Shown here: piece after piece, positions 6,804-22,346 of the stretch
Position numbering within the stretch: position 1 is the first letter of the stretch
Layout of the letters: each line of letters begins with the position of its first letter
Source: Actinomycetes bacterium
Lineage (GTDB): Bacteria > Actinomycetota > Actinomycetes > Actinomycetales > Microbacteriaceae
DNA length: 37,007 nucleotides
Assembly: GCA_021779075.1 (NCBI GenBank)
Contig: JAJYBG010000006.1
Location: forward strand, 1-37,007
Reading direction: 5' to 3'
Notes under the pieces: model-generated
Told to the model about the DNA's origin: nothing
What the model saw: only the letters and a program-made list of their open reading frames with translations
The model's database searches: none
Translations under genes and position numbers: made by a program

Positions 6804-7904
6804 ATGGGGGCGGGCATGGTCGAGAAGCACGCCGATCCGGCTGTCCCCGCGCGCGCCTCCGAGTTGGACGCCGACGAACTCCAGGTGCGCTCTGACGCTC
6901 TGCTCGCCGGCGACGCCGACCGCACCGCTCCTGTCGCGATCGTCGCGCGCCGCCGGGTCGGCGAAACCGAACTCGACGTGTTCCCGATCGCACTCGGCGC
7001 CGCGCGCCTCGCCGCGCTCGACGACGCCGTGGCGTTTGCCATCCTCGACCGCTTCGCCGCCCGCGGAGGCACCCTCATCGACCTCGCGAGCCACGGCGGC
7101 CGCGGCCGCAGCGAGGCGCTCGTCGGCGAGTGGCTGGAGAGGCGTCGCCTCACCGACCGCATGCAGCTCTCCATCAGGATGTCGCCGACTGCCGGCGTGC
7201 TCGAGCGCGACGCCGCCCCGAGCGCCCAGTCGCTCATCGCCGCAGTCGCCCGCGCGATCGCGCGGCTCCGCGTCGACAGCGTCGACCTCGTCATCGTGGA
7301 CCTGCGGACGCCGGGCATCACCCTCGAGCACGGTCTCGCGGCCATCGACAGCCTCGCAACAGCCGGCCGGGCGCGGTACGCGGCCGTCGCCGGCGCGACG
7401 GCCGACGAACTGCTCAGCGCACGGGTGCTGGCCGCGGCGAACGGCCTGCCGCGCTTCGTGGGCGTCCTGGGCGACTGGGACCCGCTCCAACGCAGCGCGT
7501 TCGACGGCGAGGTCGGCATGGCCATCGCCGCGCAGAATCTCGCGATCCTGCCCGATGCGAGCCTCGCCGCCTCGCTCCTGTCGGCGCCGCCGCTGCCGCA
7601 GAAGGAGTTCGCCAGCCGTATCCTCGGCCTCGGTCTGCCGACCCGCGCGCCGGGCGAGCGCGCCGTCGATCTGCTGGGACGCGGCCGTCAGCACCGCGTC
7701 GCGGCGGTCCTCGACCGCGCCGCCGCCGAGCACCGCGTCCGCCCGATCGCCGTCGCGCTGGCCTGGCTGCTCGCCAAACGCGGCGTTGCAGCACCGATCG
7801 TGGGTGTCACCCGCCCTGAGCAGATCGACGCGATCATGACCGCGGCAGCGGTGCGCCTCACGCGCTCTGACATCCTCGACCTCGATCGCGCGGTCGAGGG
7901 CTAG
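6804..7904 (+). CDS. Aldo/keto reductase homologue with degenerate catalytic tetrad
   Basis: A 366-residue protein that aligns by eye to the aldo/keto reductase TIM barrel: VGETELDVFPIALGAARL, GTLIDLASHGGRGRSEALVG, ARLRVDSVDLVIVDL, and the C-terminal ALAWLLAKRGVAAPIVGVT block that normally helps bind NADP. Of the Asp-Tyr-Lys-His tetrad only Asp (LID) is kept. Tyr is replaced by Gly (ASHG), Lys by Arg (LSIRMS), and the His of the DLYxxH strand by Asp (DLVIVD). It is therefore probably not a working reductase and may bind a nucleotide or have a scaffold role. ATG 6804 is used, but GAGGGA sits too close to it, so ATG 6816 is possible. A TACCCT -10 candidate is at 6778. Its 3' end forms the left copy of a 22-bp direct repeat, and its stop shares CTAG with the convergent nagB stop. 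Confidence 0.8.
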   Translation: MGAGMVEKHADPAVPARASELDADELQVRSDALLAGDADRTAPVAIVARRRVGETELDVFPIALGAARLAALDDAVAFAILDRFAARGGTLIDLASHGGRGRSEALVGEWLERRRLTDRMQLSIRMSPTAGVLERDAAPSAQSLIAAVARAIARLRVDSVDLVIVDLRTPGITLEHGLAAIDSLATAGRARYAAVAGATADELLSARVLAAANGLPRFVGVLGDWDPLQRSAFDGEVGMAIAAQNLAILPDASLAASLLSAPPLPQKEFASRILGLGLPTRAPGERAVDLLGRGRQHRVAAVLDRAAAEHRVRPIAVALAWLLAKRGVAAPIVGVTRPEQIDAIMTAAAVRLTRSDILDLDRAVEG

Positions 7905-7905
7905 C
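7884..7905. repeat. Left copy of 22-bp direct repeat (candidate attL)
   Basis: Identical over 22 bp to 24693-24714. It covers the last codons (DRAVEG) and stop of the aldo/keto reductase homologue and supplies the stop codon of nagB on the other strand. The core reads GATCGCGCGGTC and ends in CTAGC. Together the two copies bracket the cell-wall scavenging block. Confidence 0.85.
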
Positions 7906-8644
7906 CGCCCGGGCGGAGCATTCGGCTCGCTTCCTCGTCGGCCAGGACGATCACATCCGGGTGGTGCTGCAGTGCAGACGCGGGCAGATCGGGCGTGACG
8001 GGGCCCAGGATCGCTGCCGTCAGGGCTTCTGCTTTGGCCGAACCGAACGCGAGCACGACGAGAGTTGCAGCATTAAGGATGGTCCCGATGCCCTGCGTGA
8101 TCGCCTGCATCGGCACCGCGTCCAAGGCCCCGAAGAAGCGCGCGTTGTCGCGCCGGGTGCGCTCGTCCAGATCGACCAGGCGTGTGCGGGAGTTCAACAG
8201 AGACCCGGGCTCGTTGAAGCCGATGTGTCCGTTGCTGCCGATGCCGAGCAGTTGCAGGCGGATTCCGCCGGCCCGTGCGATCTCGTCATCGTATGCAGCA
8301 GCGACCGCCTGTGGAGATGGCAGATGCAGATGGTCGGGGGCGAGGCCGACCGGTTCTGCGAACTGGCGCAACAGCGTGGCACGGTAGCTGTTCGCGTCGT
8401 CCGGAGGAAGACCGATGTATTCGTCGAGGGCGAATGCCTGCGCGCGGGAGACGCCGGATTGCAGTTCCGGATCGCCGGAGACGAGTATCGCGAGTTCTTC
8501 GTAGACGGCCTCGACGCTCGAGCCCGTTGCCAGGCCGAGGACGGGACTCTCCGTCCGGAGCACACCCGCCAGCAGATCCGCCGCCTGTCGGGACGCCTCA
8601 TCGCGGTCGGCGACGATCAGACGGAGCGAAGAACTGGCGGGCAT
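7901..8644 (-). CDS. nagB: Glucosamine-6-phosphate deaminase
   Basis: A 247-residue enzyme of the short Bacillus type, converting GlcN-6-P to fructose-6-P and ammonia. Visible motifs are GLATGSSVEAVY (sugar-phosphate loop), FALDEYIG with the proton-transfer Asp74, and GIGSNGHIGFNEPG with His140 and Glu145; Asn138 in place of the E. coli Asp is normal for the Gram-positive form. RTRLVDLDERTR and FPASALQ-like DLPASALQHH complete the pattern. AAAGGA lies 6 nt before the ATG. It is the only amino-sugar-phosphate step after MurQ present here; the deacetylase NagA is not in the window. It diverges from the dipeptide epimerase across a short region with TGTACA repeats. Confidence 0.95.
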   Translation of the reverse strand: MPASSSLRLIVADRDEASRQAADLLAGVLRTESPVLGLATGSSVEAVYEELAILVSGDPELQSGVSRAQAFALDEYIGLPPDDANSYRATLLRQFAEPVGLAPDHLHLPSPQAVAAAYDDEIARAGGIRLQLLGIGSNGHIGFNEPGSLLNSRTRLVDLDERTRRDNARFFGALDAVPMQAITQGIGTILNAATLVVLAFGSAKAEALTAAILGPVTPDLPASALQHHPDVIVLADEEASRMLRPGG

Positions 8645-8662
8645 GTGAGTCCTTTACCTTGA

Positions 8663-8691
8663 AATGTACAACTAGGAAAATAATGTACATT
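8663..8691. promoter_or_regulatory. Inverted repeat in the nagB/epimerase divergent region (candidate operator)
   Basis: AATGTACA (8663-8670) and TGTACATT (8684-8691) are exact inverse copies 13 nt apart. Each contains the palindrome TGTACA, and the right half extends to a 10-bp palindrome AATGTACATT (8682-8691). It lies centrally in the 112-nt gap between the two divergent starts and is A+T-rich compared with its surroundings. A dimeric repressor binding here could control both genes; which one is unknown. Confidence 0.6.
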
Positions 8692-8756
8692 GCGCTCAAG
8701 ACCGCCATGCCGTGAGCGATTCGAATGCCGTATGTCGGATGAATGAAAGGACCACC

Positions 8757-9845
8757 GTGTCGCGGATCGAGAGCGTGATCATGCACCGTCGAGAGATTCC
8801 TCTGGTGCGACCCTTCGTGACAGCCGTGAGAACCGCCTACACGGTCGATGCCCTGCTGGTCGAGGTGCAAGACAGCGACGGACGTTCCGGCTGGGGGGAG
8901 GCTCCGACCAGCTGGCGGGTCACCGGCGAGAGTCACGCGAGTGTGACCGCCGCGATTGAAGGACCGCTCTACGAGGCCATCCGCGGTATGCCGGTGGAAG
9001 ACCCGGTAGCGGTGAGCGCGGCTCTGGAGAGAGCGGTGGTGCGGAACTCCTCGGCGCGTATGGCCGTCGACTGCGCGGTGTACGACCTCGCAGCGCGCCA
9101 GGCCGATCTTCCGCTCTACAGGTACCTCGGCGGAGAGCGTGACGTGGTGCGCACCGACATGACCGTTTCCGCGGCGGCGACGGGGCGCGAGGTCGACGAG
9201 CTCGTGCGCAGTGCCGTCCGGCACGTCGACGATGGCTTCACCACCGTGAAGGTGAAGGTCGGAGCCGGAACCGACGACCGGACGGTTGTCGCCGCAGTCC
9301 GCGCGGCTGTCGGTCCGGAAGTCGCACTGCGAGTGGATGCCAATCAGGCGTGGCAGCCGGAGCAGGCCGTGCGAATCATCTCGGCCTGGGAGGATGACGG
9401 CATCGGCGTCGAGTTCGTGGAGCAGCCGGTGCACCGGGATGACGTGGCAGGCCTCGCGCACGTCACCGAGGTGGTGTCGACGCCGATCCTGGCCGACGAG
9501 ACGGTCTGGGCGAGACGGGATCTGCGCGAAGTGCTTCGCGTGCGGGCCGCAGATCTCATCAACGTGAAGCTCGCGAAGACGGGCGGCCTGCGCGAGGCGA
9601 TCGAACTCGCCGTTCTCGCTCGGCAGAACGAGGTCGGCGTCGTGATCGGCTGCATGTCCGAGACCCACGTCGGTATCGCTGCGGCGGCCGCGCTCGCCTC
9701 CGCCGTCGCCCCCGACGAGCCCCAGGATCTCGACGCAGGGCTGTGGCTGGTGAGCAGTCCGGCGCAGGGCGGCGTCTTGTACCAGGCCGAACTTCTCCGC
9801 TTGTCGGGGGAGCCGGGGACGGGAATCCTCGGGCTCAGACGCTGA
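8757..9845 (+). CDS. Enolase-superfamily epimerase, probable L-Ala-D/L-Glu (dipeptide) epimerase
   Basis: A 362-residue member of the mandelate racemase/muconate-lactonizing branch. The KxK acid/base motif is Lys165-Val-Lys167 in TVKVKVG; metal ligands are Asp194 (RVDANQAW), Glu222 (VEQPV) and Asp247 (LADETVW); the second base is Lys271 in INVKLAKTGGL. The start chosen is GTG 8757 because AAAGGA lies 5 nt upstream and SRIESVIMHRREIPL is a normal N-terminus; an in-frame ATG at 8712 lacks such a site. Motifs alone allow several MLE-group activities. The context of anmK, murQ, nagB and a peptide transporter favours epimerising L-Ala-D-Glu from murein to L-Ala-L-Glu for peptidase digestion. The specificity is inference. 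Confidence 0.85.
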   Translation: MSRIESVIMHRREIPLVRPFVTAVRTAYTVDALLVEVQDSDGRSGWGEAPTSWRVTGESHASVTAAIEGPLYEAIRGMPVEDPVAVSAALERAVVRNSSARMAVDCAVYDLAARQADLPLYRYLGGERDVVRTDMTVSAAATGREVDELVRSAVRHVDDGFTTVKVKVGAGTDDRTVVAAVRAAVGPEVALRVDANQAWQPEQAVRIISAWEDDGIGVEFVEQPVHRDDVAGLAHVTEVVSTPILADETVWARRDLREVLRVRAADLINVKLAKTGGLREAIELAVLARQNEVGVVIGCMSETHVGIAAAAALASAVAPDEPQDLDAGLWLVSSPAQGGVLYQAELLRLSGEPGTGILGLRR

Positions 9846-9914
9846 CGGATCCGGCCGGAATTCCGGTCGAGCCGACGGACGACGGACGGCCCGGTCGAGA
9901 AGCACGCCCGTCGA

Positions 9915-12710
9915 TCACCGCGTCGCTTCTTCCAAGAGCTCCAGGATGTGCCGGTATTGCTGCCCGGTGGCGCGGCTCATTCCGAGTTCGCAGGTGAGGT
10001 TGGCCGAAGCGTAGGCGCTGTAATCGCGCTGCCCGATCGCCGCCGCCTCGGCCCGGGTGGCGGATGCAGTGAGCTCGGGATGGAGCATCCCCCGGTCTCC
10101 GGCGAATCCGCAGCATCCCCAGTCGTCCGGGATGACCGCTTCGACGCTGATCGCTTCGCCGATCCTGATCAGCGGATCGGTCACCCCGAGCTGGGTGGAG
10201 GAGCACGTCGGATGCATCATGAGCGAGTCGAGACGCCGCGTGATGTTCAGACGCGGCAGAAGCTGCTGTTCGACGAACTCGACGGCGTCGATGATTCGCA
10301 GTCCGCTTTCCGCGGCCAGGTTCAGGAACCCCTCCGTGCACGAGACACCGTCGGAGATCACCGGGAGTCGGCCCCGATCGCTGGCCGCGAAAAGCTCAGG
10401 GACCACGTTCTCGGTCATAGTCTGGTGCCCGGCGTGGAAGCCCTTCGAGGCCCACGGCGTGCCGCAGCACATGTCACCGATCCTTTCGGGGATGAGCACC
10501 TCGACCCCGGCCCGGCGACAGAGGGCGAGAAACGCCTCGCGGACTCCGACTCCGCCGGCTGCGGGCGCGAACATGGTGCCGATGCAGGACGGGACATAGA
10601 CGGCGGCGGGGTCGGCAGCGGCGAGCGGGTGCCGCGGGCTGCCACCGGCGGGGAGGTCGGCACTGTAGCGCGGCACGGTGTCGGCACCGAGCACCGCACG
10701 GCCGAGCCCGGTCGTCGCGGATACCAGCGGCGCTGGCATCGCCTTGGCAGTGTTCATCGCCAGAGCCGCGACGTTGGTGACAGCCCCCCAGCGCTTGGCC
10801 GCCTGGTTCCAGCCCGTCTCAGCGAGCGCGTTGTTCCGCTCGCTTCGAAGCCTTTTGACGAGTTTGCCGGTGTCGATGTTCACCGGGCAGGCAGTGGAGC
10901 ACATGCCATCAGCCGCGCAGGTGTCCAGGCCGTCGTAGCCGTAATCCTTATCGATCTCCGCGACCAGGCCAGCGTCCCCGGCCAGCAGTGCGCGAGCGCG
11001 CTCGCGGCGTAGGACGATGCGCTGCCGCGGTGTGACGGTGAGGTCCTTGCTCGGGCATACCGGTTCGCAATAGCCGCATTCCACGCACCTGTCGACTTCC
11101 TCTTCGACACTGGGTGTGAGCTTCAGGTATGACAGCGGACCGTCGGGGTCTTCGTTGAGCAGGACCCCCGGGTTGAGTATGCCCGCCGGGTCGACAAGCC
11201 TCTTAACTTCGCACATGATGTCGTAGAGTTCGTCGCCGAACTGGCGGCGCACATAGGGCGCCATGATCCGGCCCGTGCCGTGCTCGGCCTTGAGCGTGCC
11301 GTTCTGGCTGAGAACCAGCTCGACCATCTCCTCGGTGAACGCAGCCGAGCGTGCGCGCGAGGCGGGATCGGCGAAGTGCTCGGTGAGCATGAAGTGGATG
11401 TTGCCGTCCTTGGCATGGCCGAAGATGACGCTGTCGTCGTAGCCGTGCTTGTCGAAGAGAGCGATGAGCCCCTTGCAGGTGTCGCGGAGTCGGTCGACGG
11501 GGACTGCAATGTCTTCCAGCAGTGCGGTCGTGCCCGAGGGTCGGTTTCCGGCCACCGTGGCATAGAGGTCCTTGCGGATGTGCCAGAGGGCGTTCCGGCG
11601 CGCGGCGTCCTGGGTGAGGACGGCAGGATGCGCCAGCGGCAGATGCGCTGCAAGCTGTTCCCACGCGTCAAGTCGGGCGGTGAGATCCTCGGTGCTCTCC
11701 TCCTGATACTCGACGAGCAGCGCAGCGTGCTGGTCGACGGGGAGGGCGAGAAGCTCCTCGTCGGCGGCGGGGTCGCGCTGCGCAACACGAAGCGCGGTCG
11801 CATCCAGCAACTCGATGGTGGCGAGACCTGACGCGACGAGTGCGGTCAGCGCGCTGGTGGCCTCGTCGAGAGTCGGGAAGTAGAGCATGCCGGTCGCGAC
11901 ATGCGGTTTCACCGGAAGCGTGTCGAGGACCGCCTCAGCGACGAAGGCGAGGGTGCCTTCGGAACCGATGACGAGGTGCAGCAGGATCTCGACGGGCTGA
12001 TCGTGATCGGTGAACGCGTTGAGTCCGTAGCCCATGGTGTTCTTGAACGCGTACTGCGTCGCGATGGCCTGGACGGACGCCGGGTTGCTGCGGATCTGAT
12101 CGCGCAGTCCGCGCAGACCCTCCCACAGTGCGGGCTGACGTGTGCGCAGCTGCTCGTCGGCGTCGGGAGCGGCGGTATCGATGCGCGTCCCGTCGGGCAG
12201 GACGAGGACGGCGGAGCGGATCGTCTTGTAGGCGTTGAACTCGGTGCCGCAGGACATCCCGCTCGAGTTGTTTGCAATGACCCCCCCCATGGTGCAGGCG
12301 GCTTCGCTCGCGGGATCGGGTCCGAGTTTGCGCTTGTGCCGGGCGAGGCGGGCATTGACCTGTCGGACCGTGGCGCCCGGTTGGACACGCACCGCCTCTC
12401 CGCCGTCGAGGATCTCGATGGCGCGGAAGTTGCGTCGGGTGTCGAGCACGAACGCGTCGGTGGAGGCCTGGCCGGAGAGACTGGTGCCACCGGAACGGAA
12501 GGACACCGGGATTCCGCTGTCGTGGGCTAGTCGCAGGAGACCGGCGAGGTGGCCGGCATCGTTGACGGTGATGACTCCGGCCGGCATCATCAGGAAGTGC
12601 GAGGCGTCATGGGCGGCCGCCAACCGGTCGGTCGCGCGCATGCGCAGGCTTCCCGCGGCGAGCGCTTCGATCTGATCGGTCAGCTTCGGGGTGAGGGTCG
12701 GGGTGGGCAA
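9915..12710 (-). CDS. FAD/Fe-S dehydrogenase, probable D-lactate dehydrogenase (Dld-II type)
   Basis: A 931-residue fusion. First comes an FAD-binding PCMH domain (about 40-220; FRSGGTSLSGQAS, GGVIANNSSGMSCG), then the FAD-oxidase C-terminal domain (about 255-520; HAKDGNIHFML, KAEHGTGRIMAPYV, DPAGILNPGVLL). A ferredoxin-like 4Fe-4S part follows, with CVECGYCEPVCPS and CAADGMCSTACPV, and two CCG-type cysteine domains (MCCGTPWASKGF, GCCGFAGDRG). The length and order match the Dld-II respiratory D-lactate dehydrogenases; D-2-hydroxyglutarate dehydrogenase is the main alternative. The TTG start at 12710 is supported by AAGGAGC 5 nt upstream. It lies 55 nt downstream of the transporter ATPase in the operon that encodes MurQ. 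MurQ releases D-lactate, so oxidation to pyruvate with electrons passed to the respiratory chain is a coherent role (inference). Confidence 0.88.
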   Translation of the reverse strand: MPTPTLTPKLTDQIEALAAGSLRMRATDRLAAAHDASHFLMMPAGVITVNDAGHLAGLLRLAHDSGIPVSFRSGGTSLSGQASTDAFVLDTRRNFRAIEILDGGEAVRVQPGATVRQVNARLARHKRKLGPDPASEAACTMGGVIANNSSGMSCGTEFNAYKTIRSAVLVLPDGTRIDTAAPDADEQLRTRQPALWEGLRGLRDQIRSNPASVQAIATQYAFKNTMGYGLNAFTDHDQPVEILLHLVIGSEGTLAFVAEAVLDTLPVKPHVATGMLYFPTLDEATSALTALVASGLATIELLDATALRVAQRDPAADEELLALPVDQHAALLVEYQEESTEDLTARLDAWEQLAAHLPLAHPAVLTQDAARRNALWHIRKDLYATVAGNRPSGTTALLEDIAVPVDRLRDTCKGLIALFDKHGYDDSVIFGHAKDGNIHFMLTEHFADPASRARSAAFTEEMVELVLSQNGTLKAEHGTGRIMAPYVRRQFGDELYDIMCEVKRLVDPAGILNPGVLLNEDPDGPLSYLKLTPSVEEEVDRCVECGYCEPVCPSKDLTVTPRQRIVLRRERARALLAGDAGLVAEIDKDYGYDGLDTCAADGMCSTACPVNIDTGKLVKRLRSERNNALAETGWNQAAKRWGAVTNVAALAMNTAKAMPAPLVSATTGLGRAVLGADTVPRYSADLPAGGSPRHPLAAADPAAVYVPSCIGTMFAPAAGGVGVREAFLALCRRAGVEVLIPERIGDMCCGTPWASKGFHAGHQTMTENVVPELFAASDRGRLPVISDGVSCTEGFLNLAAESGLRIIDAVEFVEQQLLPRLNITRRLDSLMMHPTCSSTQLGVTDPLIRIGEAISVEAVIPDDWGCCGFAGDRGMLHPELTASATRAEAAAIGQRDYSAYASANLTCELGMSRATGQQYRHILELLEEATR

Positions 12711-12765
12711 CGGTGCTCCTTGGTGGGTATGCAGCGGGCGGAACGGATCCTCCCGTTCGGGCCGG

Positions 12766-14400
12766 TCAGGCTGCGGTCAGGGTGCGGCCGGGAATCGCGG
12801 CGATGAGCTGCTTCGTGTATTCATCGCGCGGCGCCTGGAAGATCTCGTCGGGTTCCCCCGATTCGACGACTTTTCCGGCGTGCATGACGTAGACGCGGTG
12901 GGCGACCAGACGCACCACGGCGAGATCGTGGCTGATGAACAGGTACGACAGGCCGAGTTCACGTTGGAGTGAGACCATCAGGTCGAGAATCTGCTCCTGC
13001 ACCAGCACGTCGAGGGCGCTGACGGCTTCGTCCATGACCACGAGTTCGGGATTGAGCGCCAGCGCTCGTGCGATGGCGACTCGCTGGCGCTGGCCGCCGG
13101 AGAGCTCATGCGGATGCCGATCGGCGAACGAGGCGGGCAGCGCGACCTTGTCCAGCAGTTCACCGACGGTCTTCTCCCGCGACGCGGAAGTGCCGATCTT
13201 ATGCACTCTCAACGGTTCTGCGATGACCTGGGCGATGGTGTACCGGGGGTCCAGCGAGGCGTAAGGGTTCTGGAACACCGGCTGGACGGAACGACGGAAA
13301 GCCAGCAGCGCCCTTCCTCGCAGACTCGCGGTGTCGGTTCCGCGGTAGCGGATCGTGCCGCCATCGGCCTGCTCGAGTCTGAGCGCCAGCCGAGCGGTCG
13401 TGGACTTGCCCGAGCCGGATTCGCCGACGATGGCGATCGTCTGCCCTCGCGGTACGGTGAGGCTCACCCCGTCGACGGCGAAGAACGGTTCGGTTTGGCC
13501 GCGCAGACGGTACTTCTTGACGGCGCCGCTGATCTCCAGCAGTGTTTCGGGTGTATCGCGGTCGCTGGTGTCGACAGCAGGGGCGACCTTGAGGCTGGCC
13601 ATGCTGGGGGCGGCGGCGAGCAGCCGCTTGGTGTACTCGTGGTGAGGGTTGGCGACGATCTCAGCAGCCGGGCCTGATTCCACGACCTCGCCGCGGTACA
13701 TGACGACGACCCGGTCGGCGCGCTCGGCGGCCAGCGCGAGATCGTGGGTGATCAGGAGAACGGCGGCGCCGAGGTCGGCGGCGAGGCGGCCCATCTGATC
13801 GAGGACCAGCCGCTGCACCGTGACGTCGAGCGCAGATGTCGGTTCGTCGGCCAAGAGCACCTCGGGGCGGCAGGCCAGTGCCATGGCGATCAGGACGCGC
13901 TGGCGCATACCGCCGGAGAACTCGTGCGGGTATTGGTGGAACCTGATCTCCGGTGTGCTGATGCCGGCCTCGCCGAGCAGCCGGATCGCCTCCGTCTCGG
14001 CGGCACGCCCTTTGGCGTGCCCATGCACCTCAAGGGCCTCGACGATCTGCTTGCCGACCTTCATCACGGGGTCGAGATTCGTCATCGGGTCCTGCGGGAC
14101 CAGGCCGATGCGGTTCCCGCGGACGCTCGTCATGGTCTTTTCGCTGGCGGTGGTGGTGTCCAGATCCTTCAGCATGATCGTGCCGGACGAGATGCGCCCG
14201 TTCTCGGCCAGGAGACGGTTAACGCTGGCTGCGAGCGTGGACTTACCGGAACCTGACTCGCCGACGACCGCCACGGTCTCGCCGGCCGCGATGTCGAGGC
14301 TGACGCCGCGGATGGCTTCTACCTCGCCCCGAGAGGTCGAGAAGGTCACGGACAGGTTGTGGACGCTGAGCACAGGCTGTCGGGCCGGGACGGCGATCAT
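12766..14400 (-). CDS. Peptide-type ABC transporter, fused double ATPase (DppD-DppF fusion)
   Basis: A 544-residue protein with two complete ABC nucleotide-binding domains. Each has a Walker [10 protein letters not shown]. The first half carries the signature [15 protein letters not shown] with Walker [12 protein letters not shown]; the second has [15 protein letters not shown] with [11 protein letters not shown]. Both halves are of the oligopeptide/dipeptide (Opp/Dpp) class, the second with the usual [12 protein letters not shown] tail. It energises import by the two permeases encoded upstream in the same operon. ATG 14400 overlaps the stop of the upstream hydrolase as ATGA, indicating translational coupling. 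The upstream extension of the frame is Arg-rich antisense-like sequence and was excluded. Confidence 0.95.
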
Positions 14401-15569
14401 GGTAGCTCCGGGGAAATCGCGAGCGGACGGGTGGAGAGGGCGGCGAGGCCGGCGTCGAGCAGCGCGTCCTGGATCTGGACGACCGTGACGAGTCCTTCGC
14501 GCGCATCCGTGGTGCCTCTGCGGACCGGCCCGACCGTCCCGTGCAGGCGCATCGCGCCGCCAGCGATGACGAGCTCCTGCTCGAGGCCGATCCCGAACCA
14601 CGTGCCGGTGAAACCGCCATGGCCCAAGAGCGTCAACTCGCCGTCGGGCGTTGGACGGGTGCTCCGGCGGAAGCCGACCGCCTGCTCCGGATGGATCGGA
14701 GTCGGCGTCGCGAACCTGGTGAGCACCGGGCCTGGGACGAAATCGCCCTCGCGTAACGCTGCGCCGAGGATCAGAAGTTCTTCGACCGTCGCGAAGAGGC
14801 CGGCGTGGCCGGCGACACCGCCGAGCGCGTGTGCGGCGTTGCCGTCGTTGACCTGCCCGCGCAGCGGATAGTCGCGCCAGCCAGCGAACTGATCGACGGC
14901 GAAAGGGACCGGATACGGGATTCCGGTGGCGATCATGGCGAATTCGTAGGCGTCGCTATCGCTGCTGGTTGCGGTCTCCGCAGCCGGGCGCGGGCCGTAG
15001 CCCGCGCTCAGACCGAGTGGTTCGGCGATGAGGGAACGGAACGCCTCCGCGAGTTCCAGCGAGGTGACCCGTTCGATGACGATGCCGGCGAGGATGAGGC
15101 CGAGGTCGGAATACTGCCAGGCGGTACCGGGGGGCAGGTCCAGGGGGAGAGTCTGCGCCCACTGGAGCGCGGTGTCGCGGTCGCTCGTCTCGAGGTACAG
15201 CGGCCACCAGGCTCGAAGACCCGCGGTGTGCGTGAGCAGCTGTTCCAGGGTGACATCGTCCTTGCCCTCGCCCCGAAAATCGGGCAGATAGCGCTGGACG
15301 GGCGCCGCGAGGTCGAGCTCGCCTTCGGCGACGAGACGCATCGTCAGGGCGGTGGTCGACGCCACCTTGGTGACCGAGGCCAGGTCGAGGTCCAGGTCGA
15401 TCGTCATCGGCACACCTGGCGCGCCCGCCGCGGGAAGCCGGGCCCAGCCTCCGGCGGCGACATCTGTTCCCGCCGAGGTGCGGACGCCGATGATGGCGCT
15501 GGCCGGATGGCGATTGTCATCGCCGAGGGTCAGCAGTTGGTCGACGGCGGAGCTGAGGTGGGTCATCAT
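14397..15569 (-). CDS. Serine hydrolase, class C beta-lactamase fold; possible MurNAc-L-Ala amidase (AmiE-like)
   Basis: A 390-residue PF00144-type protein. The SxxK nucleophile motif is SVTK (in DLASVTKVASTTAL), the second motif is Tyr-Ser-Asp (WQYSDLGLILAG), and the third is HGG (LLGHGGFTGTWFG). LLTHTAGLRAWWPLY is the usual substrate-side segment. No signal peptide or membrane helix is visible, so it should be cytosolic, unlike classical beta-lactamases and DD-carboxypeptidases. Bacillus subtilis AmiE (YbbE), the amidase of the murQRP-amiE-nagZ muropeptide operon, belongs to this fold. Lying between anmK and the transporter ATPase, this protein may likewise split MurNAc (or anhMurNAc) from its peptide. 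That activity is inference; an esterase or D-amino-acid peptidase is possible. It overlaps both neighbours by 4 nt (ATGA). Confidence 0.85.
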   Translation of the reverse strand: MMTHLSSAVDQLLTLGDDNRHPASAIIGVRTSAGTDVAAGGWARLPAAGAPGVPMTIDLDLDLASVTKVASTTALTMRLVAEGELDLAAPVQRYLPDFRGEGKDDVTLEQLLTHTAGLRAWWPLYLETSDRDTALQWAQTLPLDLPPGTAWQYSDLGLILAGIVIERVTSLELAEAFRSLIAEPLGLSAGYGPRPAAETATSSDSDAYEFAMIATGIPYPVPFAVDQFAGWRDYPLRGQVNDGNAAHALGGVAGHAGLFATVEELLILGAALREGDFVPGPVLTRFATPTPIHPEQAVGFRRSTRPTPDGELTLLGHGGFTGTWFGIGLEQELVIAGGAMRLHGTVGPVRRGTTDAREGLVTVVQIQDALLDAGLAALSTRPLAISPELP

Positions 15570-16777
15570 CCGGCATCCGCTACCGGGACCACGGTGAGCC
15601 CTGTCGGCCATTGGGGGGAGCGGATCAGTGGCGGGAAACCGCCAGTCGGTGCAGGCGTGAGACGGCCGAGCACGCGGGGGGCGGTGGCACCGGTGCAGCT
15701 CGGGACGTTGCCGGGCAGTCCGTGGAGCGTCGCCCAGCCGATGAGCGCGAAGGCGATCGCCTCTTTGTCGTCGGCGGGCACGCCGAGAACATCGCTGGCG
15801 ATCACCTGCACCTCGGGCAGGAGTGCGTTGATGCGCTCCATGAGCACCGGGTTGTGAAGTCCGCCCCCCGAGACGACCAGGAGATCGAGACGGGCGGCGC
15901 GGATCGCGTCCGCGACCGTGACCGCGGTCAGCTCGGTCAGTGTCGCGACGATGTCGGGAAGCCGTGGATCGACGCCGGCCCGTGCGATCGCGGCGGTCAC
16001 ATGATCGTGATGGAAGAGCTCCTTCCCGGAGCTCTTGGGGGCGGGGAGCGCGTAGTACGGCTCCTCCAGCAGCGTCTGCAGTAGTCGTTGGTCGACGACA
16101 CCGGCTCCCGCGAGGGCGCCGTCCCGGTCAAAGGTGTCGTCCGTCACGGGGGAGGCGGTCACCACGGCGTCGATGAGGGCATTGGCCGGTCCGATGTCCC
16201 AGGCCACCGGAGCGTGGCCGGGTGCGCAGACGGTCACGTTGGCGATGCCGCCGAGGTTCAAAGCTCCGGCGCGCTGTCCCGCAGCGCGGGCCGGGCTCAG
16301 GATCAACTGGTCCAGGATCGGGACCAGCGGAGCGCCCTGGCCGCCGACGGCGATATCGGCGGCGCGCACGTCCGAGATGACTGGCAAGGCCGTCATCTCG
16401 GCGATCCAAGCGGCTTGTCCGAGTTGGAGGGTGCCGAGGGCGTGTCCGTCGTCCACCCAGTGGAAGACAGTCTGTCCGTGACTGCAAATAGCGTCGACAG
16501 GACCGGACCAGGGCAGTGCGGCATGCGCCTCGAGTGCGTTATGGGCCGCGGCGGCGAATGCCTGTCCAATGCGGGTATCGAGCTCGCAGACGGTCTCGAA
16601 GCCGACGCGCGAGGGCGGTAGAGCCTGGAGCAGACTCGAGCGTAGGTCCGCGTCATAAGGAATCGAGTCGGTGTACTCGACCGAGCCGGTGAGCTTCTCG
16701 CCGTCTTCGGTGAAGTCCACGACCGCGATGTCGATGCCGTCGTGCGAAGTGCCGGAGATCATCCCGAGGATACGCAT
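15566..16777 (-). CDS. anmK: Anhydro-N-acetylmuramic acid kinase
   Basis: A 403-residue sugar kinase of the ASKHA fold that opens the 1,6-anhydro ring and phosphorylates anhMurNAc to MurNAc-6-P. Motifs include MISGTSHDGIDIAVVDF at the N-terminus (phosphate 1), ICSHGQTVFHW, VGGQGAPLVPILD, ALNLGGIANVTV, WDIGPANALIDAV and the adenosine-site VVSGGGLHNPVLM; NxxDKEAIAFALIGW appears as PADDKEAIAFALIGW. The length is slightly above the usual ~370. The ATG overlaps the murQ stop by 1 nt (TGATG) and its own stop overlaps the next start, so it is made in step with MurQ. Its product is the MurQ substrate. Confidence 0.97.
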   Translation of the reverse strand: MRILGMISGTSHDGIDIAVVDFTEDGEKLTGSVEYTDSIPYDADLRSSLLQALPPSRVGFETVCELDTRIGQAFAAAAHNALEAHAALPWSGPVDAICSHGQTVFHWVDDGHALGTLQLGQAAWIAEMTALPVISDVRAADIAVGGQGAPLVPILDQLILSPARAAGQRAGALNLGGIANVTVCAPGHAPVAWDIGPANALIDAVVTASPVTDDTFDRDGALAGAGVVDQRLLQTLLEEPYYALPAPKSSGKELFHHDHVTAAIARAGVDPRLPDIVATLTELTAVTVADAIRAARLDLLVVSGGGLHNPVLMERINALLPEVQVIASDVLGVPADDKEAIAFALIGWATLHGLPGNVPSCTGATAPRVLGRLTPAPTGGFPPLIRSPQWPTGLTVVPVADAG

Positions 16778-17691
16778 CAGCGGCCGACGATCTTTCCCAG
16801 AAATCCGCCCGCTGCCTCGAGCGCGGCGCGAACCTCTTCGGCGTCCATTCCGGTAGCGATCATCGCGATGGCCTCCTTGGCATGCCAGTCGGTACGGTCC
16901 AGTGCTTCTCTCGCAGTCTCCTCATCGGCGCCGGTGGCCATGACGACGATGCGGATGGCGCGGCGGACGAGTTTCGCGTTGGTGGCCTTGACGTCCACCA
17001 TCAGGGTGCGGTACGACTTGCCGAGCTTGATCATGCTGACGGTGGAGAACATGTTCAGGACCATCTTCGTCGCGGTCCCCGCGGCGAGCCGGGTGGATCC
17101 GGTCACGATCTCGGGGCCGACCGGAATCTCGATACCGAAGTCGGCCGCCGCCGATACCGGGGTGTTCAGGTTGCAGGACAGCCCGACGGTGAGCGCACCC
17201 AGTTCGCCGGCGCGACGCAGCGCGCCGATGACATAAGGCGTGCGGCCGCTTGAGGCGATGCCGAGCACCACGTCCAGTGGAGTCGGGTTCAGGCCGTCCA
17301 CGTCCGCGGCGCCCGCGTCGTCGCTGTCCTCCGCGGCTTCGACCGAGCTGACGAGTGCGGCAGGGCCTCCGGCGATCAGGCCGATGACGACACCGGGGTC
17401 GGCACCGAAGGTGGGCGGGATCTCGGATGCGTCGAGCACTCCGAGGCGGCCCGAGGTGCCGGCACCGGCATAGATGAGCCGACCTCCGCGCCGCATCCTG
17501 TCGATGGTCGCCTCGATCGCGGTGGCGATGACCGGCAGAGCCTCCCGAACAGCGACGGGAATCGTAGCGTCGCGATCGTTCATGAGCGTGACGAGCTCGG
17601 CGACGCCGAGCTCGTCGAGCATGAGCGAGTCGTCGGCGACGGCCTCGGTCACGAGATCGTCGAGGTCGGTGTTCGGAGGATTAGTGGTCAT
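16777..17691 (-). CDS. murQ: N-acetylmuramic acid 6-phosphate etherase
   Basis: A 304-residue SIS-domain lyase that removes the lactyl ether of MurNAc-6-P, giving GlcNAc-6-P and D-lactate. Clear motifs are YAGAGTSGRLGVLDASEIPPTFG (given in parts: GAGTSGRLG, DASEIPPTF, with the Glu of the active site), EAAEDSDDAGAAD with the second conserved Glu, GIASSGRTPYVIGAL, and the phosphate-binding EIVTGSTRLAAGTATKM. The C-terminal helical domain ends in EALEAAGG-like RAALEAAGGFLGKIV. It sits between the inner permease gene and anmK, with 1-nt overlaps on both sides. Its two products are handled by NagB (after a deacetylase not seen here) and, probably, the FAD/Fe-S dehydrogenase encoded at the operon's end. 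Confidence 0.98.
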   Translation of the reverse strand: MTTNPPNTDLDDLVTEAVADDSLMLDELGVAELVTLMNDRDATIPVAVREALPVIATAIEATIDRMRRGGRLIYAGAGTSGRLGVLDASEIPPTFGADPGVVIGLIAGGPAALVSSVEAAEDSDDAGAADVDGLNPTPLDVVLGIASSGRTPYVIGALRRAGELGALTVGLSCNLNTPVSAAADFGIEIPVGPEIVTGSTRLAAGTATKMVLNMFSTVSMIKLGKSYRTLMVDVKATNAKLVRRAIRIVVMATGADEETAREALDRTDWHAKEAIAMIATGMDAEEVRAALEAAGGFLGKIVGR

Positions 17692-18584
17692 CAGTGGCTT
17701 CCGGTCTTGGGGTCGAGTGCGGCGCGCAGGCTGTCGCCGAGGAGGTTGAGCCCGATGACCGCGATGACGATCGCGGTGCCCGGGAAGTAGAGCATCCAGG
17801 GTGCGACCGAAGTGAGCGACTGCGCGTCCTCGACCATGCCGCCGAGGGAGGCAGCTGGCGGCGGTGTGCCGAAGCCGAGGAAGCTCAGGGACGCCTCCGT
17901 GAGGATCGCCCAGGAGAGGGAGAGCGTGATCTGCACGACGAGGATGCTGCGCATGTTCGGGATGACGTGCTCGAACAGGGTGGACAGTCGGCTTCGGCCG
18001 ATGGCGGTGGACGCCATCACGTAGTCGGCGCTGCGCAGAGTCAACACCGGTCCACGGGCGACGCGGGCGAAGATCGGCAGGTAGACGATCGCGATCGACA
18101 AGGCGACCGTTTCCCAGCTGCGCTGCAGGGTGGCGGCGAGGGCGAGGGCGAGCAGAAGCGAAGGGAACGCGAAGAGGACGTTGGTGATCACGCCGACGAT
18201 CCGGTCGATGAGGCCCTGATAGTAGCCGGCGAGGACACCGAGAGTCGTTCCCGCCAGGGCTGCTGCGGCCACCGAGACGATGGCGATCCGAAGCGAGTTG
18301 GCGAGCCCCGACGCGACACGCGCGAAAACATCGCGGCCGAACTGATCGGTCCCGAACCAGTGCGTGCTGCCGGGCCCCTCCAGCGCGCTCGAGACGGTCT
18401 GTTGTGCGGGGTCATGCGGGGTGAACCCGAACAGGCCCATGATCGCCAAGATGACGATCACGGTCATGAGGACGACGGAGGCGATCCCGGAAGGGGTGCG
18501 GAAAGCGGCACGCCAGACGCTCTTCCGGCGTGCGGAGCCCATCACGATGGTCGTCATATCGATCGTTTTGGCGGTGTTGCTCAT
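17691..18584 (-). CDS. Peptide-type ABC transporter permease (DppC/OppC class)
   Basis: A 297-residue inner-membrane permease with six predicted transmembrane segments: one near 33-55, then a loop with HWFGTDQFGRDVFARV (the diagnostic DppC segment), and helices from about 95 onward. The EAA cytoplasmic loop reads YVMASTAIGRSRLSTLFEHVIPN, with FLGFGTPPPAASLGGMV before the last helices. It pairs with the DppB-class permease encoded just upstream, whose stop it overlaps by 4 nt. It precedes murQ with a 1-nt overlap. The tight coupling of transporter and murQ suggests that the cargo carries MurNAc (inference). Confidence 0.95.
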   Translation of the reverse strand: MSNTAKTIDMTTIVMGSARRKSVWRAAFRTPSGIASVVLMTVIVILAIMGLFGFTPHDPAQQTVSSALEGPGSTHWFGTDQFGRDVFARVASGLANSLRIAIVSVAAAALAGTTLGVLAGYYQGLIDRIVGVITNVLFAFPSLLLALALAATLQRSWETVALSIAIVYLPIFARVARGPVLTLRSADYVMASTAIGRSRLSTLFEHVIPNMRSILVVQITLSLSWAILTEASLSFLGFGTPPPAASLGGMVEDAQSLTSVAPWMLYFPGTAIVIAVIGLNLLGDSLRAALDPKTGSH

Positions 18585-19558
18585 CGGACGCGCACCCTCG
18601 GGTCGACCACGCGATAGACGAGGTCAGTGAGCAGGTTCACCAGGACGAACATGGTCGCGATGATGAGCACTGTGCTCTGCACGACTGCGTACTCCTTCTC
18701 GTTCAGGCCCAGCAGGACCTGTCGTCCGATGCCGGGGATGGAGAAGATCTGTTCGGCCACGAGCGCTCCGCCGAGCAGGAATCCGAACTGCAGACCGCTC
18801 ATGGTGACGACCGGGATGAGGGCGTTGCGCAGGATGTGCCTGAATTGGAGCCGACGCTCGGGGACACCCTTGGCGCGGGCGGTGCGCACGAAGTCCTCAG
18901 CGCGAATGTCGAGGATGGCGGTGCGGGCGGTCTGCATCACCGGAGGGGCGATGCTGATGCCGAGGACGAGCGCCGGCAGGATCATCTGCTCGAGGTTCAG
19001 CGCGGGGTTCTCGAGGAGGGTGTTGTAGCCGGCGCCGTTCGGATACCAGTTGAAGGTGTTCGCAAGCCAGCTCGCGACGGCTGTTGCCAGCAGGAACGAG
19101 GGGATCGACAGCGCGAGAAGGCTGCCGAACTGGGTGAGGTTGTCGCGCGTCTTCCCCGGCCGACTGGCGGCGAGTACGCCGAGTGGCACGCCGAGCAGGA
19201 GACCGACGACGATCGAGAGCACCGCGAGTTCGAGGGTGTTCGGCAGCGACTGGGCGGTCATCTGCAGAACGCTCAGATGAGACGTTGCGGATACTCCGAG
19301 ATTGCCGGTCAGGACTCCGCCGAGCCAGCTGAAGTATTGGGCGATCAGGGGCTTGTCGAGACCGTAGTAGATCTCGAGCGAATGGAGTTGCGCAGGGGTC
19401 AACTCGCCAGCCGCGGTGCCGTAGGCGGCAGTGATCTGGTTGCCCGGCACGACGCGCAGCAGGATGAACGTCAGAATCGAGATCCCGAGAAGGGTCAGGA
19501 GCGTCTCGCCGACTCGGCGGGTGACGGGGTGGCGCGCAACGGCGCGGAGCTGGTTCAT
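18581..19558 (-). CDS. Peptide-type ABC transporter permease (DppB/OppB class)
   Basis: A 325-residue permease. It begins with the canonical first helix LLTLLGISILTFILLRVVPGN, split here as LLGISILTF and LRVVPGN, followed by LDKPLIAQYFSWLGGVLTGNLG, typical of DppB. Helices follow from about 95, and the EAA loop is FVRTARAKGVPERRLQFRHILRN. The end reads VNLLTDLVYRVVDPRVRVR, the conserved C-terminus. ATG 19558 is chosen because MNQLRAVARHPVTRRV is a normal short N-terminus; the earlier in-frame ATG lies inside the strong hairpin upstream. The Shine-Dalgarno is weak. It is separated from the binding-protein gene by that hairpin. Confidence 0.95.
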   Translation of the reverse strand: MNQLRAVARHPVTRRVGETLLTLLGISILTFILLRVVPGNQITAAYGTAAGELTPAQLHSLEIYYGLDKPLIAQYFSWLGGVLTGNLGVSATSHLSVLQMTAQSLPNTLELAVLSIVVGLLLGVPLGVLAASRPGKTRDNLTQFGSLLALSIPSFLLATAVASWLANTFNWYPNGAGYNTLLENPALNLEQMILPALVLGISIAPPVMQTARTAILDIRAEDFVRTARAKGVPERRLQFRHILRNALIPVVTMSGLQFGFLLGGALVAEQIFSIPGIGRQVLLGLNEKEYAVVQSTVLIIATMFVLVNLLTDLVYRVVDPRVRVR

Positions 19559-19578
19559 GGGATACGTCTTAAGCGGAG

Positions 19579-19613
19579 AGTGTGGGGCGGGCGCGTGGCG
19601 CCCGCCCCACACT
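19579..19613 (-). terminator. Perfect 16-bp stem-loop between binding-protein and permease genes
   Basis: AGTGTGGGGCGGGCGC (19579-19594) pairs perfectly with GCGCCCGCCCCACACT (19598-19613) around a 3-nt loop. No T-run follows. In ABC operons such hairpins after the binding-protein gene act as partial terminators or 3'-end stabilisers, so that far more binding protein than permease is made. Confidence 0.75.
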
Positions 19614-19619
19614 GGATGG

Positions 19620-21170
19620 TCAGGAGATCGATGCCTTCCACAACGTCATCAGGTCGGCGTCGACCCGTGGCTCGAACCCGTGAACCGAGGTGTTGAGGAC
19701 GATGTACTCCTTCGGGGTGAACAGCCAGATCCATGCCGCGTTGTTGACGAGCTGCTCGGAGATCTGCTTGTAGATGGCCGTGCGCTGTGCGGTGTCCGTG
19801 GTGGCGATGCCCTGGGCAAAGAGGTTGTCCAGTTCCGGTGAGCGGTAGCCGGCGACCTTGTTGTATGTGCCCGTCGATGTGAAGTATCGGGCGTACATGG
19901 TGTTCGGGTCCGGGCTGCCGCTGTTCTGCGCGATGGCGGCGTCGAAGTCACCGGCCAGCCACTTCTGCACATAGGTGTTGGAGTCCAGGGTCTGGACGTT
20001 CACCTTGATACCGACCTTGCCGAGTTGCGCCTGGATGTTCTGGGCCTCGTCGACCGCGCTCGAGTAGAGGCCCTGCGAAGTCATGAGGTTCAACGTGAAG
20101 CCGTTCGGCGTTCCGGCCTTGGCAAGGTACGACTTCGCCTTGGCGAGGTCCTGCGTCGGGCAGGGCTGATCATTGGTGTCGGATTTGAACTGTGGCGACG
20201 TGATGGGGCCGGTGATGTCACCGGCGCCGAGAGCTGCCGAGTCGACGACGTCCTGGCGGGAGATCGCGCACTGGATCGCGAGGCGGGTGTTTACATTGGA
20301 GAGCACCGGGGACGCTGCGCGCAGCTGAAGGGCGTGGTACTGAAGCGAGCCGACCGAATCGGTCGTCACCGTCGGTGATGTTGCCGTCTTCGCCGTGACG
20401 GGGTTGTCGAAGACCGCGATGTCCACGGCGCCGGTCTTCAGCGCCAGGACCATCGACTGATCGTCGGGGATGATGCGGAACTCGAGTCCCGCTGCTCCCG
20501 GCTCGCCGCCGAAGTAGTCGGCGTTGCGCTTGAGCGTGATCGATTCGTTCGGGACGCGGCTGACGAACGTGTACGGGCCGGAGCCGTCGGGCTTCGTCTG
20601 CAGGCTGTCGACCGAGACGTCAGACGGCACGATGCCGGTGTTCGGCTGGGTCAGGCCGGCGGGGAACGAGGCGTCCGCCTTCTTCAGCTTCACGACGACC
20701 GTCTGCGGGTCCGGGGCCTCCACGCTCGCGACCGAGGCGAAGTAGGACGTCGAACTCGCCTTGGAGGCGGGATCCATGATCTTGTCGAACGTGTACTTCA
20801 CATCGGTCGAGTCCAGCGTGGATCCGTCGGCGAATTTGACGCCGCTGTGGAGGGTGAAGGTGTAGGTCAAGCCGTCGGAAGACACCTTCGGCAGGTCGGC
20901 GAGGCCGGCGATCGGCTCCTTCTGAGCATTCGAGTCCAGCAGCGGGCTGTACAGCTGCGACAGCACCTGCAGCGACTGCTCGGACGTCAGTGTCCACGGG
21001 ACCATCTGAGTGGGGTCGGCGGTGATGCCAAAGACCAGCGTTCTGCCGGAGTTCGACGAGCCGGTGCTGGAGTTGCTGGTGCCGGAACACCCTGCGAGCA
21101 GCAGAGTGGCGGCGGTAACCGCGGCGCCGGCGACGAGCGCACGGCGGGTGGAGCGGCTGACCTGATTCAC
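19620..21170 (-). CDS. Solute-binding lipoprotein, family 5 (peptide/muropeptide uptake)
   Basis: A 516-residue extracellular binding protein. The N-terminus is a lipoprotein signal: basic RSTRR, hydrophobic stretch, then lipobox LAGC with Cys at about 28, followed by a Ser/Thr/Asn linker. The mature part has SBP_bac_5 features: SEQSLQVLSQLYSPLLDSN, the YTFTLHSGVKFADGSTLDSTDVKYTFDK block (given as HSGVKFADGS and DVKYTFDK) and DIAVFDNPVTA. It captures the substrate for the two downstream permeases. The GTG start at 21170 has AAGGAGA 6 nt upstream. It is the first gene of the operon leading to murQ and anmK, and diverges from an RpiR-type regulator. Murein peptides or anhMurNAc-peptides are the likely ligands (inference). 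Confidence 0.95.
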   Translation of the reverse strand: MNQVSRSTRRALVAGAAVTAATLLLAGCSGTSNSSTGSSNSGRTLVFGITADPTQMVPWTLTSEQSLQVLSQLYSPLLDSNAQKEPIAGLADLPKVSSDGLTYTFTLHSGVKFADGSTLDSTDVKYTFDKIMDPASKASSTSYFASVASVEAPDPQTVVVKLKKADASFPAGLTQPNTGIVPSDVSVDSLQTKPDGSGPYTFVSRVPNESITLKRNADYFGGEPGAAGLEFRIIPDDQSMVLALKTGAVDIAVFDNPVTAKTATSPTVTTDSVGSLQYHALQLRAASPVLSNVNTRLAIQCAISRQDVVDSAALGAGDITGPITSPQFKSDTNDQPCPTQDLAKAKSYLAKAGTPNGFTLNLMTSQGLYSSAVDEAQNIQAQLGKVGIKVNVQTLDSNTYVQKWLAGDFDAAIAQNSGSPDPNTMYARYFTSTGTYNKVAGYRSPELDNLFAQGIATTDTAQRTAIYKQISEQLVNNAAWIWLFTPKEYIVLNTSVHGFEPRVDADLMTLWKASIS

Positions 21171-21246
21171 GGGGTCTCCTTGGTATCGGGTGATGCGCCT
21201 GCTGTGGTCGGCAACACTGGCGGCGCTGCCAGCATCGACGTTATGG

Positions 21247-21291
21247 CAAATTTGTTTCCCAAATTGTTTCTAAGCTGTAAATTTTTTTACA
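21247..21291. promoter_or_regulatory. A+T-rich operator region between transporter operon and rpiR gene
   Basis: TGTAAATTTTTTTACA (21276-21291) has 6-bp inverted arms, close in form to the TGTAATTAAATTACA site of the RpiR-family regulator HexR. Beside it lie two near-identical direct elements, CAAATTTGTTTC (21247-21258) and CAAATTGTTTC (21260-21270). This A+T-rich patch stands out in GC-rich DNA and sits 76-121 nt upstream of the binding-protein start. It is a likely binding site for the adjacent MurR-like regulator. Confidence 0.65.
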
Positions 21292-21342
21292 TGGTGTTGG
21301 GGCCAACGTCAACTTATGGACCATCCGGCTCCGGAGAGCCGA

Positions 21343-21360
21343 ACCGCGGCTTGCCGCGGT
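21343..21360. repeat. Short GC-rich palindrome upstream of rpiR-type gene
   Basis: ACCGCGGC (21343-21350) and GCCGCGGT (21353-21360) are exact inverse copies with a 2-nt centre. It precedes a possible -10 (TATACG, 21384-21389) of the regulator gene. It could be a second operator or a hairpin ending transcripts that enter from the left; nothing decides between them. Confidence 0.4.
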
Positions 21361-21424: not shown

Positions 21425-22309
21425 ATGACGGAGGACGTTCTGGTGCGATTGCGCCAGCAGCTGCCGGCGTTGCGGCCCAGCGAGCAGCGAATAGCGCGAA
21501 CCGCGATCGCGGATCCCGCCGGAGTTTCCGGCCTGAACATCACTCAGCTCGCGTCGCGAAACGACACCTCGACGACCACGGTCGCACGCTTCTGCCGCAA
21601 CATCGGCTTCGACGGATACAAGAGCTTCTGCCTTGCGCTGGCGCGCGCGGCGGTCGACGAAAGCGGTCGCCGCGTCGAGTTCGGTATCTCGGAGGGTGAC
21701 ATCGACCCGACGGATACCACCGCCGAGGTCGTCCGCAAGCTCGCCTATCAGGAGGCCCGCGCTGTTGAGGAGACCGCGGCGATGCTCGACCTCGCCGAGG
21801 TCGATCGCCTCGTCGCCGCGATCAGCGGTGCCCCCGTGATCGACCTCTATGGTTCCGCCGGCTCTGGACTCGCCGCGCAGGACCTCCAGCAGAAGCTGAG
21901 ACGCATCGGCTATCAGGCCAACGCGTGGACCGATGTCCACCTTGCGCTCACGAGCGCCGCAGTACTGCCGCCCAATGCCGTTGCGATCGCCTTCTCGCAC
22001 TCGGGCGAGACGGAAGAGGCCATCTCGTCCATTGAAACTGCAGCCCGCAGCGGCGCCTTCACGGCGGCGGTCACCAATTTTCCGGACTCGCCGCTGGCGC
22101 AGATCGCCGACGCTGTCCTGACCACGGCCTCGCGCGAGACGCGCTTCCGCTATGGGGCGATGTCGAGCCGCATGGCTCAGCTGATGATCGTCGATGTGAT
22201 CTTCATGGGCGTAGCGCAGCGCAAGCCCGAGGCGATCTCCGACCTGCTGTCTCGCACGCTCGCTGCTGTCGCAGGCCGGCGTCGGCCGCGGAAGAACGAC
22301 ACGCTTTAG
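21425..22309 (+). CDS. RpiR/MurR-family transcriptional regulator
   Basis: A 294-residue regulator with an N-terminal HTH_6 domain (about 1-77; LRPSEQRIARTAI, then TSTTTVARFCRNIGFDGYKSF, the typical recognition helix) and a C-terminal SIS domain (about 125-250; IDLYGSAGSGLAAQDLQ, AIAFSHSGETEEAI). SIS domains bind phosphosugars. E. coli MurR, of the same family, represses murQ-murP and responds to MurNAc-6-P. Divergent placement from the murQ-anmK transporter operon, with an RpiR-like palindrome between, makes the same role likely. No symbol is given because the family also regulates other sugar-phosphate pathways. Confidence 0.92.
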   Translation: MTEDVLVRLRQQLPALRPSEQRIARTAIADPAGVSGLNITQLASRNDTSTTTVARFCRNIGFDGYKSFCLALARAAVDESGRRVEFGISEGDIDPTDTTAEVVRKLAYQEARAVEETAAMLDLAEVDRLVAAISGAPVIDLYGSAGSGLAAQDLQQKLRRIGYQANAWTDVHLALTSAAVLPPNAVAIAFSHSGETEEAISSIETAARSGAFTAAVTNFPDSPLAQIADAVLTTASRETRFRYGAMSSRMAQLMIVDVIFMGVAQRKPEAISDLLSRTLAAVAGRRRPRKNDTL

Positions 22310-22346
22310 CCTTGTCCAGCGGCTGCGGCGGCGGAAGCCGCCGTGC

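Follow-up and report, generated by a model that had tools for sequence, protein, structure and literature searches.

A Dld-II-type dehydrogenase recurrently linked to MurQ in Actinomycetales, with a probable role in oxidising the D-lactate of muropeptides

That the etherase MurQ yields D-lactate is textbook knowledge (PMC5061867), yet discussions of MurQ usually centre on the sugar that it makes. What becomes of the lactate? The question is raised by a 37,007-nucleotide stretch of DNA (the window; contig C17 of an assembly of 1.78 Mb that is 89% complete) from a member of the Microbacteriaceae, in which an operon containing MurQ ends with a gene for an FAD/4Fe-4S dehydrogenase whose nearest named relatives, by sequence, are found in Leifsonia and Humibacter. 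On the basis of sequence comparisons we consider it highly probable that the order has repeatedly drawn Dld-II-type enzymes of this kind into its MurQ clusters, and that they oxidise the D-lactate released by MurQ. The dehydrogenase would act in respiration, as a D-lactate dehydrogenase dependent on FAD and Fe-S, and would carry out the final step in muropeptide salvage by the operon, with the lactyl moiety of the wall sugar retained as pyruvate and reducing power rather than lost. If a dedicated dehydrogenase travels with MurQ, then half of the output of MurQ is fuel and not waste, and muropeptide-eating actinobacteria of soil and plants could respire cell wall. Moreover, repeated and separate pairing of the two genes makes a strong case for the function of the large set of proteins annotated as "FAD-binding and (Fe-S)-binding domain-containing" that are encoded beside MurQ.

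The dehydrogenase and its linkage to MurQ

The gene and its probable ribosome-binding site are as follows.

9915..12710, minus strand: Dld-II-type FAD/4Fe-4S/CCG dehydrogenase, predicted D-lactate dehydrogenase, final gene of the operon
12716..12721, minus strand: AAGGAG, Shine-Dalgarno-like, 5 bases ahead of the TTG of the dehydrogenase, read directly

The open reading frame begins with TTG, contains no internal stops and encodes 931 amino acids. Pfam places FAD_binding_4 at residues 43-179, FAD-oxidase_C at 269-515, a 4Fe-4S dicluster domain at 538-612 and CCG at 832-910: all four domains of Dld-II in a single chain of ~930 residues. The initial annotation had described a 931-residue protein with this domain order at the end of a murQ operon, and reading frame, Pfam matches and gene order all agree. 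A second CCG-like stretch, unscored by Pfam, is marked by C709, C748 and C749, each of which is Cys in 140 of the 141 actinobacterial relatives labelled by neighboring genes (labels from BLAST matches and clusters, with a Pfam scan of representatives). Identity to relatives on alpha- and gammaproteobacterial plasmids is 35-39%, and to an Azospirillum protein encoded beside LutB-type genes, the nearest stand-in for a characterised Dld-II, 39%.

The Fe-S half of the protein is unusual: an invariant Asp replaces a cluster cysteine. The second 4Fe-4S motif (residues 598-608) reads C-x2-D601-x2-C-x3-C-P, and resembles Asp-ligated ferredoxin clusters. Position 601 is Asp in 141/141 labelled rows, Cys in the Azospirillum relative and in YdiJ, and Thr in the Vibrio and Pseudoalteromonas relatives.

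The association with MurQ was quantified in two sets of genomes. Among 150 genomes of the family the enzyme occurs in 38 and MurQ in 32: both are present in 20, the enzyme alone in 18, MurQ alone in 12, and neither in 100 (Fisher p 3.6e-7). Among 297 genomes of the order, scored with stricter cut-offs (E 1e-120 and 1e-60), the enzyme occurs in 92, MurQ in 110 and both in 63 (Fisher p 9e-14); the two sets overlap in genomes, such that these p-values are not independent, and kinship, uncorrected here, is corrected in part by the tree described below. The family counts include two matches of 40-41% identity (G065, G070), and exclude pieces in G081, G112 and G038, YdiJ-like matches of ~27-33% identity, and a second copy of the enzyme broken by in-frame stops (G084:C1:2741794-2744565).

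Where both genes are present they are often close together. The distance is less than 10 kb in 10 of the 20 family genomes, spanning nine genera, where 0.14 would be expected, and less than 10.5 kb in 15 of the 63 order genomes, spanning four families, where 0.47 would be expected. By family, linkage in the order set is 8/9 in f9, 5/8 in f1, 1/13 in f12, 1/4 in f3 and 0/29 in the others. MurQ was in reach of the enzyme at nine of the best 80 named loci (from at least 570 confirmed stretches) and a lactate permease at 13, the two never together. Five unrelated genes of the window served as controls: DapA, RNase J, FtsK, PNPase and Ald were found at 0/40 and 0/80 enzyme loci, the corresponding figures for MurQ being 9/40 and 9/80.

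The layouts of the linked loci differ. In Leifsonia the order is solute-binding protein (SBP), DppBC, MurQ, AnmK, hydrolase, DppDF, enzyme; in three Cryobacterium a regulator and the enzyme diverge from SBP, DppBC, MurQ, AnmK and an epimerase; Plantibacter has AnmK-MurQ-NagB-enzyme and Arthrobacter sp. B2a2-09 has MurQ-enzyme-NagB-AnmK. Locus L110 has GH3, AnmK, a Na+ symporter, MurQ, a BadF kinase and the enzyme, and at locus L099 MurQ and a kinase-type gene stand with a sugar-binding protein and genes of permease type. On a FastTree phylogeny of 146 proteins, in which long branches were flagged, the label "MurQ in reach" (32 rows, a number that is not a frequency among the 141, since 20 order loci were chosen mostly for being linked) requires 13 changes, at least 10 of them on well-supported branches; shuffled labels require 28.9. 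These changes argue for recurrent assembly of the pairing. A single ancestral pairing offers no simple account of the pattern, although losses may account for some of the 13.

A wider and more tentative suggestion, which we hold to be somewhat less probable than its opposite, is that wall recycling has been repeatedly wired to respiration in this order. Several unrelated layouts would have converged on pairing MurQ with a D-lactate dehydrogenase dedicated to it; the MurQ reaction is reversible, and removal of D-lactate would pull the etherase forward; shed or foreign wall would serve as electron donor; and sugar, peptide and lactate would be taken from each muropeptide under one regulator.

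Lactate contexts, substrate pocket and rival explanations

If the enzyme oxidises D-lactate, then its relatives might be expected in other lactate contexts. A lactate permease lies near the enzyme in 22 of the 141 labelled rows, never in one stretch with MurQ; of the 11 family genomes with both enzyme and permease, 6 have them side by side.

The protein itself provides further information. Residues R379, H432, H439, E476 and H477 align with R347, H398, H405, E442 and H443 of mouse LDHD (residue roles from PMC10589216), and these metal and substrate residues of FAD-type D-2-hydroxyacid dehydrogenases are retained in nearly all relatives: the Arg and the three His in 141/141 labelled rows and E476 in 139/141. 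The side pocket is hydrophobic, with L78, Y383, L398 and M441 corresponding to the LDHD subsite V101, W351, S365 and I407. Ala396 occupies the position of LDHD Ala363, where GlcD has the Tyr that accompanies glycolate specificity (PMC10589216). A sequence-profile search of the PDB returned D-lactate dehydrogenases at the top (E 5.8e-42, 4.8e-40), with D-2-hydroxyglutarate dehydrogenase (D2HGDH) lower (7.8e-24). A fold search with the AlphaFold model (mean pLDDT 83.7, below 50 at residues 76-80 and 148-155) placed mouse LDHD first (3.9e-25) and D2HGDH at rank 18 (5.6e-21). Pocket, profile and fold thus point to D-lactate or small hydrophobic D-2-hydroxyacids, short of proof for D-lactate. Residue 441 is Met in the clade of the window, in 31/32 MurQ rows and in 22/22 permease rows, and Leu in 11/18 rows with a dehydratase, a split that may hint at substrate.

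Identity as the glycolate oxidase subunit GlcD was rejected on the score of TIGR00387 (182.1 bits, cut-off 567.9).

If the enzyme is placed to consume the D-lactate of MurQ, as the initial annotation had it, then it should be repeatedly linked to MurQ, other members of its family should occur in lactate contexts, and its pocket should be of the lactate type. Each of these predictions was borne out, and the proposal is supported accordingly.

Three other explanations deserve consideration. The enzyme could act broadly on D-2-hydroxyacids whose side chains are small and hydrophobic (2-hydroxybutyrate, 2-hydroxyisovalerate and similar acids); it would be able to use D-lactate, but its main load would come from sources other than MurQ, and it would be tied to the operon only loosely. 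The hydrophobic pocket is compatible with such a role, and LDHD, the top fold match, is itself broad, with a better kcat/KM for several larger substrates (PMC10589216); nevertheless, neither the recurrent linkage to MurQ, with its well-supported changes on the tree, nor the tight operon of the window clade is predicted by it, and we regard it as improbable. More improbable still is derivation from sugar-acid clusters (dehydratase, lactonase, fumarylacetoacetate-hydrolase-like protein, short-chain dehydrogenase), with the enzyme still oxidising their lactate or glycolate of either hand and MurQ a bystander. A dehydratase of the relevant family is in reach in 18 of the 141 rows, 14 of them within the 48-row clade that includes the window, and Cryobacterium lactosi (L133) displays such a layout. 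Yet residue 441 is the Met of the MurQ and permease rows, not the Leu of most dehydratase rows, position 396 is Ala rather than the Tyr of glycolate-specific GlcD, and the scanned genes of the window include none of ILVD_EDD type.

The least credible alternative, to which we attach very little weight, is a D-2-hydroxyglutarate dehydrogenase that clears a side product of serine biosynthesis; the initial annotation had named this substrate as the competitor. The superfamily is the same, and E. coli YdiJ, annotated as a D-2-hydroxyglutarate dehydrogenase, has a similar domain order. Identity as YdiJ was, however, rejected (NF049975 173.9 bits against a cut-off of 1350; 23% identity), and other genomes of the family encode separate, YdiJ-like second proteins of ~30% identity. 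Identity as D2HGDH was also rejected: its charged pocket (Thr390, Lys401, Asn443) is absent, Lys401 being replaced by Leu398, Asn443 by Met441, and Thr390 by Tyr383, the last by counting from the shared Arg, since the printed alignment has a gap there. Both the pocket and the YdiJ model therefore disfavour D-2-hydroxyglutarate.

Several observations weigh against D-lactate from MurQ as the substrate. The window clade (the window, genome G055 and two Leifsonia) and Humibacter are nested in the 48-row clade (support 94), which also holds, besides its dehydratase rows, 30 rows labelled "other", with none of the labelled partners in reach, that include Humibacter, whose enzyme has no linkage to MurQ; given this context, the enzyme may descend from one for another hydroxyacid. 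Enzyme and MurQ are unlinked in 10 of the 20 family genomes that have both, 12 of the 32 family genomes with MurQ have no enzyme (including G053, of the same genus), and G123 has neither MurQ nor an orthologue of the enzyme. Pocket residue L78 lies where the pLDDT of the model drops below 50. Finally, the assembly is 89% complete, and with eight matches to 2-Hacid_dh_C in the genome an NAD-type D-lactate dehydrogenase may be present.

The MurQ loci of all 12 MurQ-only genomes, and of 8 of the 10 unlinked genomes (G016 and G129 were left out), yielded no matches to the enzyme or permease; an FMN_dh-like match was present at one MurQ locus without the enzyme nearby (G003). Within the 89%-complete genome of the window no other FAD-type D-lactate dehydrogenase was found, nor any match to Lact-deh-memb, LUD or lactate permease. 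Its two other FAD_binding_4 genes encode a sugar-lactone-oxidase-like protein and MurB, and of two strong FMN_dh matches one is the mycofactocin protein MftD and the other L214.

At L133, L103 and 16 further loci a member of the enzyme family stands beside an ILVD/EDD dehydratase, and L133 adds a lactonase, a fumarylacetoacetate hydrolase, a dehydrogenase and a short-chain dehydrogenase. These loci are likely to be sugar-acid pathways that end in lactate or glycolate.

Comparison with known systems

One close parallel is Dld-II of Shewanella oneidensis (SO_1521), a respiratory FAD/Fe-S D-lactate dehydrogenase with FAD-binding, FAD-oxidase C and Fe-S domains in a single chain (PMC4481167). Its lldP-dld operon puts a lactate permease beside Dld (PMC5432575), as is the case among relatives of the window protein, whereas the window enzyme closes a murQ operon in a genome with no lactate permease match. 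Mouse LDHD shares the aligned catalytic residues and the hydrophobic pocket, but is mitochondrial, lacks the Fe-S/CCG half and is ~22% identical over the flavin half.

The metabolic connection has a precedent in Corynebacterium glutamicum, where a quinone-dependent D-lactate dehydrogenase takes MurNAc-derived D-lactate (PMC6165865, PMC3022706): in cells engineered for MurNAc, lactate accumulates transiently and Dld is credited with its consumption (PMC6165865). That Dld is of another type (it matches Lact-deh-memb, as nothing does here), and the excerpts of PMC6165865 and PMC3022706 describe no linkage to murQ. Growth of M. bovis BCG on MurNAc has likewise been ascribed to the lactate part (PMC6572805). 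The statement that a link between lactate oxidation and murein recycling is not usually drawn is therefore too broad for metabolism; for the gene coupling, a search of the open-licence literature found no report of a D-lactate dehydrogenase gene joined to murQ.

The operon also resembles E. coli murQP, which combines etherase, transporter, a serine hydrolase of the PBP4B/beta-lactamase superfamily and the divergent RpiR regulator murR (PMC5061867), but E. coli has a PTS transporter, the window operon a peptide-type ABC transporter together with AnmK and the dehydrogenase. In Tannerella forsythia, MurT-MurK-MurQ (Na+ symporter, MurNAc kinase, etherase; PMC5790795) resembles the symporter-MurQ-BadF kinase arrangement of L110; the window has an ABC layout, and no dehydrogenase is mentioned in the excerpts of PMC5790795.

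The operon and its neighbours

Eight genes lie in order on the minus strand, from the solute-binding protein to the dehydrogenase; those preceding the dehydrogenase, together with flanking genes, are listed below.

19620..21170, minus strand: solute-binding protein SBP_bac_5 (Pfam), first gene of the operon
18581..19612, minus strand: DppB-like ABC permease, from sequence and alignment with the Leifsonia L130/L131 counterparts
17691..18584, minus strand: DppC-like ABC permease, on the same grounds
16777..17691, minus strand: MurQ (TIGR00274 352.5 bits, cut-off 302)
15566..16777, minus strand: AnmK, anhydro-N-acetylmuramic acid kinase (522.1 bits, cut-off 440)
14397..15611, minus strand: serine hydrolase PF00144 (top NCBIfam match PBP4B, 86.4 bits, below cut-off 385)
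12766..14412, minus strand: fused two-domain ABC ATPase of oligopeptide type, from profile matches; frame open to 14601
21425..22309, plus strand: MurR-like RpiR/SIS regulator (HTH_6, SIS; MurR/RpiR models below cut-off), divergent from the operon
8712..9845, plus strand: L-Ala-D/L-Glu-epimerase-like gene of the enolase superfamily (best model 190.7 bits, below cut-off 500), convergent with the dehydrogenase
7901..8644, minus strand: NagB-like glucosamine-6-phosphate deaminase (TIGR00502 190.4 bits, below cut-off 236.9)

MurQ thus shares one cluster with a kinase, a transporter and an RpiR regulator, as in murQ-type muropeptide recycling operons; NagA is located elsewhere in the genome (C146, above cut-off). 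All eight genes recur in this order, along with the divergent RpiR regulator, in Leifsonia virtsii (L130) and Leifsonia sp. C5G2 (L131), and the eight are also kept in genome G055, which argues that the arrangement is not due to chance. Upstream of the dehydrogenase the genes overlap or almost touch, while the final gap, between ATPase and dehydrogenase, is 55 bases; the dehydrogenase is probably co-transcribed with the others. A simple scan of positions 7800-22400 found no terminator-like sites (4.8 expected in shuffles), and a promoter scan was uninformative, with two matches only, both on the plus strand within genes. The serine hydrolase more probably starts at an in-frame ATG around 15569, which overlaps the stop of AnmK; the protein, nearest to PBP4B among the models, is possibly a cytoplasmic muropeptide amidase.

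The interval between solute-binding protein and regulator (21170-21424) is AT-rich and contains AATTTGTTTCCCAAATT, which is not clearly common to relatives. A search for an operator in this gap (the window and eight loci) and in the 250 bases before the regulator at 11 more loci found no shared palindrome judged to be one.

Other loci offer candidates for functions adjacent to MurQ. A kinase of the BadF/BadG/BcrA/BcrD family lies between or beside MurQ and the enzyme at L110:8214-9155, L171:7965-8921 and L183:9135-10001, and is a candidate MurNAc kinase; at L183 and L190 a BadF-family kinase accompanies regulator and enzyme with no MurQ match. The sodium:solute symporter between AnmK and MurQ (L110:5792-7291) may carry MurNAc, as MurT does in Tannerella. 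At L099, L104, L197 and L075 coding sequence resembling the end of a serine hydrolase abuts the MurR-like gene on the same strand; hydrolase and regulator may therefore share a transcript opposite MurQ.

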